From the NCBI RefSeq assembly GCF_009805585.1, contig NZ_VHIN01000005.1:1-64000 (forward strand): a stretch of DNA of 64,000 nucleotides, given 5' to 3'. The DNA comes from Glutamicibacter sp. JC586. Lineage in GTDB: Bacteria > Actinomycetota > Actinomycetes > Actinomycetales > Micrococcaceae. Numbering within the stretch: the stretch's first letter is position 1; the number at the start of each line of letters is the position of its first letter. A program made the position numbers and the translations under genes. Shown one piece after another: positions 41,618 to 45,626 of this stretch. Under the pieces are notes generated by a model. It saw only the letters and a program-made list of their open reading frames with translations. It had not been told where the DNA came from and searched no databases.

Positions 41618-41899
41618 TTAGTCGTCTAGACCTAGAGAGAAGGCAGCCTCTAGGTCATGATCCGAATATGCGCGGAAGGCAATGTGGGTCTGAGTTCCTT
41701 GGATTCCAGGAATTTTAGAGAGTTTGTTGGCGATAACTTCGGCCAAGTCTTCGTGCTTGTGCACTCGCGCCACAGCAATCAGGTCCCAATCACCAGCCAC
41801 TGAGTAGACTTCACTGATACCCGATATTGCAGAGATCTGCTGGGCACACTCCGGGATGCTGTCATTTGCAGTTTGAATCATAACGAATGCGGTGACCAT
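41618..41899 (-). CDS. Stand-alone Lrp/AsnC ligand-binding (RAM) domain protein
   Basis: 93 aa, consisting only of the RAM/AsnC effector domain (VTAFVMIQTANDSIPE, then GISEVYSVAGDWDLIAVARV and IPGIQGTQTHIAFR) with no helix-turn-helix. Such small proteins may bind amino acids and co-assemble with full-length Lrp regulators. The ATG at 41899 has AAAGG seven bases upstream; the longer frame from 41914 would start inside that site. It is next to trpD, but a direct link to tryptophan is inference. Confidence 0.88.
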   Translation of the reverse strand: MVTAFVMIQTANDSIPECAQQISAISGISEVYSVAGDWDLIAVARVHKHEDLAEVIANKLSKIPGIQGTQTHIAFRAYSDHDLEAAFSLGLDD

Positions 41900-42060
41900 T
41901 GCTGCGCCTTTCACTACGCGGTCTCCATCGTGAAGACCTATTACTTAGCTTCAACTCTAGTCGAAAATAGCCTGAGGGCGAGCCAGCATCATCGAGATCC
42001 CATATCAAGTTACAGGCTTATAAAATTGTATAGACGTTTACAAAGTTATATAATTGTTCC

Positions 42061-42657
42061 ATGATCGTACTTACTATTGACCAGCGGCGTTCTCGTTCTT
42101 CCGAAGACAAGGTTCAAGCCCTCATTGAACAAGCGAATGCCACCGTGAGTGTTGTTCGCAAATTCGAGCGTACCGCTGGCGATGAAGTTCAGGCCGTATT
42201 GGACGATGCGTCGGAAGCCATCAGACTTGCTGTGATGATGGCTGCTTCGGGGGACTGGAGCGTCGGTCTTGGATTCGGTCAGGTGGAGACCCCGCTCCCA
42301 AAAGAGACCCGTGCCGGCCGGGGCCCGGCCTTTGAATATGCTCGCGTTGCCGTGGAACGCGCGAAGAACACCAATGCTCATCTCGCGGTCCATGGTCCTT
42401 CCCATGAAGCCACCCGGCTTGAAGCAGAACTCCAACTCACCGCGTGCATCATTTCTAAACGTCGAGCCACCGCGTGGGAGGCAGGGACTTTAGCGGATGA
42501 AGGTCTGACCCAGCAGCAGATAGCGAAAGAACTGGGAATCACGCAGCAAGCTGTCTCGTCTCGCCTGTCGGCGGCGTTATGGTTTGAAGCAAATCGAATG
42601 ATGGATGAGGCAGCAAAGTCCCTAACTCGCCAACTGAAAATGCTGGGGGAATCGTAG
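42061..42657 (+). CDS. SatD-like protein with C-terminal helix-turn-helix
   Basis: 198 aa. The layout fits the SatD family: an N-terminal strand with Asp7 in LTIDQRRSR (family form GDIVGSR), then GDEVQAVL with Asp41-Glu42, SVGLGFGQV near residue 67 and GRGPAFEYARVAVERAK. These match in order the metal-binding strands of class III nucleotidyl cyclases, but catalysis is unproven. Residues ~149-171 (LTQQQIAKELGITQQAVSSR) are a helix-turn-helix of sigma-70 region 4/MarR type. The next gene starts directly after the stop (TAG ATG) and encodes a membrane protein, so the two are coupled. Function unknown. Confidence 0.7.
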   Translation: MIVLTIDQRRSRSSEDKVQALIEQANATVSVVRKFERTAGDEVQAVLDDASEAIRLAVMMAASGDWSVGLGFGQVETPLPKETRAGRGPAFEYARVAVERAKNTNAHLAVHGPSHEATRLEAELQLTACIISKRRATAWEAGTLADEGLTQQQIAKELGITQQAVSSRLSAALWFEANRMMDEAAKSLTRQLKMLGES

Positions 42658-43200
42658 ATGTTTTGGATCGCGTGGAGCAGTCTTGGTTTCGCCACCGTTC
42701 TTTCTTGTTTAGCTGCCTATTCGGGGGCTAACGTTGGAACGCGTGTTGGCCGAAGAGAAATCCTGGTAGCTATCGCAGGTGTTCTGGCTATAGCGTCGGC
42801 GGTGGTTGCCGCGATAGCTAATGTTTCGGCCTTAGGTGCGAACGTGCCGCTGTTCTACGTTGTTGTTCTTTCATCCGTTTTTGCCATCAGTTTCGGCGGT
42901 CCATTTACAGAGTTGGTCTTTCGGCTGGCCGCCAAAAATGACTCTTCGCTTGTGAAAGACGAGTCCGATCCATCCCCACTTCGTGGTGGGTTATGGATCG
43001 GACTTCTAGAACGGGCCGCTATCCTAGGCAGCCTATGGGCTAGCTGGCCGGAAGGGATCGCGATCGTCATGGCCATCAAGGGACTGGGGCGCTTCTCAGA
43101 ACTCAAGGACCATCGTGCTGCCGAACAATTCATCTTGGGAACATTCGCAAGCGGACTCATCGCGGCCGGGTCTTATGGACTAGGCTTGCTGCTTTTGTGA
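42658..43200 (+). CDS. Membrane protein paired with the SatD-like gene (DUF3307-like ending)
   Basis: 180 aa with about five hydrophobic helices (residues ~3-24, 35-55, 62-84, 112-134, 155-178). The segment GGLWIGLLERAAILGSLWAS, then AIKGLGRFSELKDHRAAEQF and LGTFASGLIAAG resembles the C-terminal part of DUF3307 proteins, which are often found beside SatD genes. It has no spacing from the upstream gene, implying obligate co-expression. The last 21 bases overlap the convergent DUF3054 gene. Function unknown; a membrane partner or effector of the upstream protein is a reasonable hypothesis. Confidence 0.7.
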   Translation: MFWIAWSSLGFATVLSCLAAYSGANVGTRVGRREILVAIAGVLAIASAVVAAIANVSALGANVPLFYVVVLSSVFAISFGGPFTELVFRLAAKNDSSLVKDESDPSPLRGGLWIGLLERAAILGSLWASWPEGIAIVMAIKGLGRFSELKDHRAAEQFILGTFASGLIAAGSYGLGLLLL

Positions 43201-44956: not shown

Positions 44957-45307
44957 CTACGATACAGATTCCTGTACAGTGAGCCTGTATCGAGCAAAGT
45001 CGATGGTCTGATAAACGAACTCACGAGTTCGCTCGTCGTGCATTGAATAGATCGTTCGTCGGCCAGACTTGTTGGCTTGCAGTACGTTAGCTGCGCGCAG
45101 CTTCGACAGGAATTGCCCGGCAACCGTCGGGCTCACTCCAATTTGCTGCGCAAGCTCCGGCAACGACAGATCCTCACGACACAGCGCCCAAAGCATTTGC
45201 AGGCGCATTGGATCCGCCATGGTCTTGAGAACAAGAACGCTCATATCCGTCAAATCACTCGGTATTATGCCTTCACGAGTTTCGAGACGACCAAAGCTAC
45301 CAGCCAT
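44957..45307 (-). CDS. ArsR-family transcriptional regulator
   Basis: 116 aa. Winged-helix motifs are VLVLKTMADPMRLQMLWALC, SLPELAQQIGVSPTVAGQFL and SGRRTIYSMHDERTREFVY. The ATG at 45307 has GAAGGGAAA seven bases upstream; the open frame continues to 45565 but the extra 86 residues look random. No cysteine pair typical of arsenic or cadmium sensors is present apart from one Cys in the first helix, so the signal is unknown. No obvious target gene is adjacent. Confidence 0.85.
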   Translation of the reverse strand: MAGSFGRLETREGIIPSDLTDMSVLVLKTMADPMRLQMLWALCREDLSLPELAQQIGVSPTVAGQFLSKLRAANVLQANKSGRRTIYSMHDERTREFVYQTIDFARYRLTVQESVS

Positions 45308-45626
45308 CGAACTTTTCCCTTCGGAGTTACACCGCGGGAATATAGCCACATCACCCTGAGCATCACTCCCTTGAGTCCGTCCATTATGGTCACGTCGGAT
45401 CAAAAAGCGATAGGGTTGACCCAGATTCGCATGAGACTCGCGGGCCGGCACGGAAACGGACGTCGCTCCCCTGAATAATTCATCCGTATCGATATTTACT
45501 AAACCATATCTAACTAGTACCTTTTCATGGCAACGTAGATTCCGCCGATTGACGCGAAGGATCATTCATCGTCAATCTGAGCCTTCCAAAATTGGTTGCT
45601 GAATCGTAGGGTGGCAAAATCTAACT
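45308..45626. other. intergenic region between ArsR gene and zapE
   Basis: A 319-base divergent gap. On the minus strand TATATT (45344-45339) could be the -10 of the ArsR gene, giving a ~25-base 5' UTR with the GAAGGGAAA Shine-Dalgarno. No other element was recognised. Confidence 0.4.

Follow-up and report, generated by a model that had tools for sequence, protein, structure and literature searches.

A SatD-like cyclase-fold protein and a DUF3307-related membrane partner: a possible autoregulated nucleotide-signalling module

Encoded side by side in the window (the whole 64,000-nucleotide stretch of Glutamicibacter sp. JC586 DNA analysed here) are a SatD-like protein and a helical membrane protein, members of a SatD–partner pair that travels together across actinobacteria and some archaea. 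The SatD-like protein likely has a class III cyclase/GGDEF-like fold, carries a C-terminal helix-turn-helix (HTH) and probably regulates itself through tandem palindromes. It is possible, if on the doubtful side of even, that the pair is an autoregulated nucleotide-signalling module with toxin–antitoxin-like behaviour, in which a cyclase-fold antidote controls a membrane effector.

The gene pair and its chromosomal setting

Both open reading frames named in the sequence-only reading are present in the window's ORF list and abut with zero gap, the second being translated directly after the first:

42061–42657 (+): SatD-like protein, 198 amino acids (ORF with ATG; SatD PF16264 at 27.2 bits against a cut-off of 29; AlphaFold2 pLDDT 95.7)
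42658–43200 (+): helical membrane partner (ORF2), 180 amino acids, homologous to the C-terminal half of DUF3307 proteins (ORF with ATG; alignments and profiles; AlphaFold2 pLDDT 87.5)

Purifying selection acts on both genes, with dN/dS of 0.015 and 0.033 between the window and locus L069, dS being saturated in most other pairs. Upstream of the pair are cytochrome bc/oxidase genes and a trpD-like gene (from a reading of the translations), and downstream are DUF3054 and DUF3817 membrane genes (Pfam); these flanking genes look like housekeeping genes. The named SatD loci examined are the 80 best of 413; of these, 25 have a trpD-like gene near SatD and 13 have a downstream gene of the same cluster as the DUF3054 gene of the window, the neighbours being named from the window's own matches and a reading of translations. 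The nearest of these loci, labelled Glutamicibacter and Arthrobacter, are 66–97% identical to the window's SatD, which has a counterpart in 18 of the 18 genomes of its genus searched, its own included. The pair is fixed in at least one genus, Glutamicibacter; given the recurrent trpD-like and DUF3054 neighbours and the presence of SatD in all 18 genomes, the earlier placement of the pair at the border of a possibly variable region is not supported. A constant place in the Glutamicibacter chromosome points to a role in housekeeping or stress. Next to the pair, window 41618–41914 (minus strand) encodes an Lrp/AsnC ligand-binding domain that stands alone, with no DNA-binding domain attached.

Distribution of the pair

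In a survey of 246 genomes of the class, SatD was found in 76 and the partner in 76; at least one of the two is present in 79 genomes, and 73 have both. The two genes are adjacent in every one of these 73 (71 on the same strand, 2 convergent), and the co-occurrence that the sequence-only reading had put forward as a check is thus near-obligate. The SatD count in this survey applies a threshold of E 5.1e-17; relaxing it to E 0.001 raises the count to 128, and most of the additional matches listed cover the HTH only. In the phylum sample outside the class, SatD lies beside the partner in five of the five genomes that have the partner. Across the class survey and the phylum sample no true orphan partner was seen, whereas solo SatDs occur.

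Directly 3′ of SatD and on the same strand is the partner in 76 of the 80 named loci (best 80 of 413), and in 52 of these 76 the two genes overlap by 4 nucleotides, with start codons chosen by script. The four loci without an intact downstream partner are L113, where the contig edge falls within the apparent start of the partner; L137, where SatD is intact and the partner reduced to a remnant; L141, with SatD and no partner; and L120, described below. Two plasmid records matched the window's SatD, and two other plasmids, archaeal, matched a distant SatD; annotated SatD and DUF3307 genes with a 4-nucleotide overlap are found on two haloarchaeal plasmids.

The SatD-like protein

Similarity to the SatD family (PF16264) extends over residues 13–171 at 27.2 bits (E 3.6e-6), just under the curated cut-off of 29 bits, and relatives in the same alignment exceed that cut-off at 57.9 and 70.0 bits. 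The homology runs across the domain with shared motifs: S11, D41, E42, G71, G73, G88 and A155 are invariant in one alignment of 24 sequences, D7 is conserved at at least 90% in the wider 24-sequence SatD set, and an alignment of 71 SatD proteins shows no variation at D7, S11, G40, D41, E42, Q44, G69, G71 or G73. The motifs reported earlier, Asp7, GDE at 40–42 and GLGFG (69–73), are therefore in place, and both metal positions are conserved. Two regions can be delimited:

42061–42396 (+): cyclase/palm-fold domain, residues 1 to about 112, with metal triad D7, D41 and E42 (model, Foldseek, conservation)
42496–42579 (+): helix-turn-helix, residues 146–173, with the recognition helix around QQAVS at 162–166 (Pfam Sigma70_r4; Foldseek sigma region 4 structures)

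The AlphaFold2 model, built from 71 sequences (pLDDT 95.7), comprises strand 2–8, helix 18–28, strands 33–37 and 42–47, helix 50–63, strand 66–72 and helix 89–101, followed past residue 101 by a helical C-terminus containing the HTH. In class III cyclases and GGDEF domains the metal ligands sit on strand 1 and in the strand 2–3 hairpin; in the model D7 is on strand 1 and D41/E42 are in the strand 2–3 hairpin, and by conservation and modelled position SatD has carboxylates at the class III cyclase metal positions. The PDB Foldseek list is headed by class III adenylyl cyclases from mycobacteria (4wp3, E 0.022, probability 0.84; 1y10; 4wp9), with 1ybt and the GGEEF domain 6eib at ranks 9–10, which bears out, weakly, the cyclase-like fold of the sequence-only reading. 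None of the outcomes that this reading had named as refuting was obtained. The first eleven matches also include response regulators and two transcription regulators, 3onq and 9f80, the latter two with an r.m.s.d. near 15 Å; structures of sigma region 4 are on the list as well, as is mCpol 9nwn (rank 33, E 0.32). Zero matches at E < 0.001 were obtained from the PDB or from a viral structure library. Profile comparison by hhalign aligns the SatD motifs with their counterparts in class III cyclases at a probability of 63% and in GGDEF domains at 8%. We regard the fold class as likely and an enzymatic activity as putative.

Searched by sequence against solved structures, SatD gave matches (43 sequences) almost all in the HTH region. 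The C-terminal HTH noticed earlier is also recovered by Pfam (Sigma70_r4, 28.1 against 24.1 bits, residues 146–173).

The membrane partner

ORF2 is predicted to be purely helical, with six main helices and no β-barrel (pLDDT 87.5), and its helices are hydrophobic in sequence, in agreement with the multi-helix membrane protein described from sequence. It has no Pfam or PADLOC match up to E 1, and so no detectable N-terminal DUF3307 domain; its best NCBIfam (E 0.17) and PHROGs (E 0.028) matches are not convincing. Zero matches at E < 0.001 were obtained for its model in the PDB, and its sequence matched none of the solved structures.

In distant Actinomycetota, a profile of ORF2 relatives nevertheless matches DUF3307 proteins over their C-terminal half. 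One such protein, that of L059 (PF11750 at 54.8 bits, residues 8–120), shares 28 of 76 residues with ORF2 (two-sequence E 2e-8), and the DUF3307 proteins of the two haloarchaeal plasmids match the partner profile with best-domain E values of 1.6e-29 and 8.4e-29. It is the common C-terminal region and the pairing with SatD that link ORF2 to DUF3307, by a criterion of our own and not of Pfam. The most conserved part of the partner lies in this region:

42979–43152 (+): conserved partner C-terminal region, residues 108–165, LRGG..IG.LER ... A.KG.GR..EL ... E.FI.GT..S (invariant or nearly invariant columns in 68 sequences)

Invariant in the 68 sequences are, among others, G110, G111, G115, E118, R119, K141, R145, E156 and G161.

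The metal triad and the neighbouring membrane gene

Across 166 distinct SatDs, the residues equivalent to D7/D41/E42 are DDE in 131/131 with the partner, 9/9 with only a PycTM gene (a Pycsar-type membrane effector), 1/1 at a contig edge and 9/25 solo; the triad is thus intact in 140/140 SatDs beside a membrane gene, be it partner or PycTM. In the remaining 16 of the 25 solo paralogs the triad is lost and the HTH region kept, and some of the intact solo SatDs (L052–L055) are distant, their partners possibly having been missed by the profile, while L137 has a remnant of the partner. On contig 21 of the window's own genome is a solo paralog of this kind (L032:3110–3712), with the triad lost and the HTH region kept, beside HAD-like and serS-like genes; it is perhaps now a plain regulator.

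To place these states on a tree, 94 of the 166 sequences were used (all 25 solo, all nine PycTM and 60 random of the 131 partnered), with a quick method and the trait columns kept in. Membrane-gene presence changes six times on this tree, the triad twice, the recognition-helix residue once, the operator call twice and the PycTM label three times. Among independent pairs differing in membrane-gene presence the triad differs in one of six, and no sign test is significant. Because the triad losses are clustered, with two changes on the tree, the triad association, complete in one direction, rests on few evolutionary events. Fisher tests for the triad and for the operator half-site described below ignore ancestry, and we therefore set their p-values aside.

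Alternative neighbours of SatD and of the partner

Six genomes from three lineages have PycTM next to SatD; in two of these lineages it replaces the partner. Four genomes of one genus (G268, G406, G581 and G602) have PycTM between two SatD genes, convergent with one of them; in L212 it scores 62.3 against 27.2 bits with PF18967 and E 1.9e-17 with the PADLOC PycTM model. In the family of that genus, SatD matches were obtained from 44 of 100 genomes; among the 30 best loci the usual partner is present in 24, PycTM in these four and neither in two. In Gordonia lacunae (L120), PycTM (64.0 bits) lies directly before SatD with a TAATG overlap. In the third lineage, represented by G120 (L058, L228), PycTM (59.8 bits) adjoins a complete SatD–partner pair and is convergent with the partner. 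The swap between PycTM and partner is not strict, since G120 has PycTM together with an intact pair, and mutual exclusion of the two, which we had considered, is ruled out by the same genome. Two effector types are present at this one locus, the PycTM at L228:945–1457. There is no general link between PycTM and SatD: of the 246 class-survey genomes 26 have PycTM, and in only 2 does it lie beside SatD.

Directly behind the partner in all three SatD-less partner genomes of the class survey (G412, G520 and G529) is a small gene with the motif GSGPLLxHGxR...DLDI, which we take to be NTase-like (L209:2040–2480, L210:2076–2522 and L211:2455–2904). These genes have no NCBIfam or PADLOC match (three tested) and no Pfam match (two tested), and the SatD-type palindrome is absent from the 120 nucleotides upstream of the partner in the three loci.

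Probable promoter and operator

Immediately upstream of SatD, two putative regulatory features overlap:

42012–42057 (+): putative tandem operator, palindrome 1 at 42012–42029 (ACAGG-N8-ATTGT) and palindrome 2 at 42040–42057 (ACAAA-N8-ATTGT), from a pattern search
42026–42054 (+): probable promoter, −35 TTGTAT (42026–42031), 17-nucleotide spacer, −10 TATAAT (42049–42054), read from the sequence

Each palindrome is 18 bp long, the two are 28 bp apart, and the second ends 3 nucleotides before the start codon; the operator has one mismatch to the tandem pattern, with 0.15 occurrences expected per window at up to three mismatches. The −35 element is the right arm of palindrome 1 and the −10 element lies inside palindrome 2, only 6 nucleotides from the ATG, so that the SatD transcript is probably leaderless.

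The consensus of the SatD upstream palindromes is [AT]CAAN-N8-NTTG[AT], in tandem at 28-bp spacing, the second mostly ending 3 nucleotides before the start. At least one palindrome was found in 64 of 76 SatD upstream regions, the same loci from which the pattern was derived (105 sites; 41 regions with two or more; 35 sites ending at −3 and 35 at −31), compared with a mean of 1.3 regions and at most 5 in 100 rounds of a dinucleotide-shuffle control. Among other loci to which the pattern was then applied, L020, L026, L027 and L029 have both sites and many have none. In the other SatD subfamily TGAAG...CTTCA palindromes precede many loci, 28 bp apart in L296 and L298.

Between the subfamilies the recognition helix changes with the half-site. 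In 145 upstream regions, 53 of them without an operator call, a Q163-equivalent glutamine goes with CAA/TTG in 69 and with GAA/TTC in 1, serine with GAA/TTC in 20 and with CAA/TTG in 1, and alanine with GAA/TTC in 1; as the residue changes once and the operator call twice on the tree, this is one switch and not many. That half-site and HTH residue differ together between subfamilies suggests that SatD probably regulates itself, and with the operator lying over both −35 and −10 elements it would most simply be a repressor of its own operon. The operator, like the link to the C-terminal region of DUF3307, is an addition to what had been read from the sequence before.

Palindromes were noticed at several other places. 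L283 and L284 have GDLVNSR-type SatDs and a CAA/TTG palindrome at about −18, and L284, with serine in the recognition helix despite CAA/TTG, is an exception to the half-site rule. The haloarchaeal SatD–DUF3307 operons L300 and L301 have a palindrome upstream of 3977, near the SatD start (ACCGAAC-N9-GTTCGGT in L300). A SatD regulon was sought in 58 relatives and set aside: the exact tandem pattern occurs at 18 places in 15 of them, 15 of these places being SatD promoters, and the backwards-pattern control gave 1 place; the window's own genome was missed by the exact pattern owing to its one mismatch. In two genomes of the window's genus (L317 at about 4476 and L318 at about 4488) an extra tandem palindrome lies just 3′ of a pyrD-like gene, and that of L317, one large hairpin, may be a terminator. 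A further tandem operator in G024 (L319, about 4490) runs up to the start of a gene for a YeiH-like membrane protein, which may be a second SatD target.

Phage and defence context

The suggestion that SatD/DUF3307 pairs are found in phages did not hold in the records searched: tblastn against 50,697 phage records gave no match for the window's SatD, its partner, a distant DUF3307 protein or a distant SatD, and scans of viral contigs confirmed no relatives of the pair. Phage origin or carriage of the pair was set aside after these searches. In a paper on a jumbo Ralstonia phage, the passage that lists a DUF3307-like ORF of 134 amino acids does not mention SatD (PMC8504454), so DUF3307 itself is not foreign to phages.

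A defence island was likewise considered and set aside, PADLOC on eight window neighbours giving only Csa3/CARF matches to one ORF (44957–45565, minus strand). This ORF is a probable winged-helix regulator, whose Csa3 matches (best E 6.3e-9) probably arise through the winged helix alone. At the related loci, 108 flanking proteins of 11 loci were scanned (of 138 proteins and 14 loci drawn from the 80 named loci); at E 1e-10, 10 PADLOC models matched, as counts without a background sample, including mad3 in two proteins and mad8, AriA, ATPase-Toprim, PDC-M72A, PycTM and a 2TM effector in one.

Comparison with known systems

We found no established function for the SatD or DUF3307 family in the literature searched, nor any description of the pair as a system in that literature, which left out most subscription papers. 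The sat genes of S. mutans were reportedly described around 2001. They are tied there to acid tolerance (as cited in PMC11323703). According to the same source, S. pyogenes satD is the sole accessory gene in the top quarter of essentiality; it scored as essential in emm1, emm28 and emm49 strains alike, although it is carried by 178 of 249 genomes; the word ‘antitoxin’ is absent from PMC11323703.

By the tests run, the pair is not a member of Pycsar or Panoptes. With Pycsar, in which cyclase products activate PycTM (PMC11224242), it shares a membrane protein alongside a cyclase fold that has metal carboxylates, and PycTM itself adjoins SatD in three lineages; the parallel drawn in the sequence-only reading stands to this extent. 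It fails as to membership: neither protein of the pair has a PADLOC PycC, PycTM or PycTIR hit, SatD being unmatched by the cyclase models and ORF2 by any, and SatD has an HTH and probably an autoregulatory operator. With Panoptes (mCpol + 2TMβ), in which constitutive 2′3′-c-di-AMP restrains 2TMβ (PMC12657230), the pair shares a palm-fold enzyme with a membrane effector, mCpol 9nwn being in the SatD structural list, and the antidote logic proposed here. It differs in that the window partner is modelled as all-helical, as against two transmembrane helices plus a β-barrel, and in the HTH of SatD. To class III cyclases and GGDEF domains SatD is similar in the Asp on strand 1, the GD(E) in the 2–3 hairpin and the Foldseek matches 4wp3, 1y10, 1ybt and 6eib, but the likeness is remote, as the hhalign and Foldseek scores indicate. 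Relative to the named families, SatD is homologous to PF16264 with a score just under the cut-off, and the partner resembles the C-terminal half of DUF3307 proteins (PF11750) while having no detectable DUF3307 domain.

Proposed mechanism and alternatives

Tight pairing, overlapping genes and probable autoregulation give the pair its likeness to a toxin–antitoxin operon, and the conserved metal site together with the changes of neighbour points to a nucleotide link. In the module that we tentatively favour, the C-terminal HTH of SatD would bind the two tandem palindromes over its own promoter and limit expression of the operon, while the N-terminal cyclase-fold domain would bind metal and a nucleoside triphosphate at D7/D41/E42 and make a small nucleotide product. 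By analogy with Panoptes, this product, or the nucleotide-bound enzyme, would keep the membrane partner harmless; when SatD activity, substrate or product drops, through stress or a nucleotide-removing phage enzyme, the partner would alter the membrane. Three observations favour restraint over activation: solo SatDs but no true orphan partners were seen, L137 has kept SatD but only a remnant of the partner, and satD is essential yet accessory in S. pyogenes (PMC11323703). The essentiality of S. pyogenes satD would, as a prediction, be explained by pairing with a partner there; transposon polarity could also explain it.

Operon order, gene overlap and palindromes over the promoter resemble those of type II toxin–antitoxin operons, and they suit a conventional antidote in which SatD binds the partner directly and represses the operon, catalysis being irrelevant. 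The intact triad in 140/140 SatDs beside a membrane gene argues against this, and PycTM beside the SatD family would require a second binding interface; we judge such an antidote quite improbable. The same 140/140 weighs against SatD as a one-component sensor, whose cyclase fold would bind a nucleotide ligand and alter operator binding, the partner being a regulated membrane stress or transport protein. The HTH and the tandem operator, the best supported features, favour the sensor, as do the 16 of 25 solo paralogs that keep the HTH region and lose the triad, the regulators 3onq and 9f80 (r.m.s.d. near 15 Å) in the first eleven Foldseek matches, the conserved chromosomal location and the link of the S. 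mutans sat genes to acid tolerance (as cited in PMC11323703); as PycTM takes the place of the partner and its Pycsar relatives respond to the product of a cyclase (PMC11224242), we judge a sensor unlikely.

A Pycsar-like abortive defence, in which a silent SatD would make a cyclic nucleotide upon infection and the activated partner would kill the cell, draws on the fold, the membrane partner and PycTM beside SatD in three lineages. We consider it improbable, given that the 108 flanking proteins of 11 loci provide no clear defence-island setting, that the window pair has no PADLOC cyclase or effector hit, that SatD is present throughout the genus, and that satD was scored essential and not dispensable in S. 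pyogenes (PMC11323703).

Implications

New in this work are the tandem operator, the association of the triad with a membrane gene, and the PycTM and NTase-like neighbours of SatD and partner; to the known scheme of a cyclase-fold enzyme plus a membrane effector, the autoregulated module would add feedback through DNA binding. SatD and DUF3307 are named families without an assigned function, found in bacteria and archaea. More broadly, they may belong to a widespread bacterial and archaeal module in which SatD makes a partner-restraining nucleotide and tunes the operon, with effectors (DUF3307-C, PycTM) and synthases (SatD, NTase-like) interchangeable, and which explains S. pyogenes satD, although we hold this generalization to be somewhat unlikely as a whole. 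If true, SatD/DUF3307 would be a nucleotide-signalling system of Pycsar/Panoptes-like logic with built-in transcriptional feedback, and would provide a possible explanation for the essentiality of satD in S. pyogenes, a puzzle in the published record.
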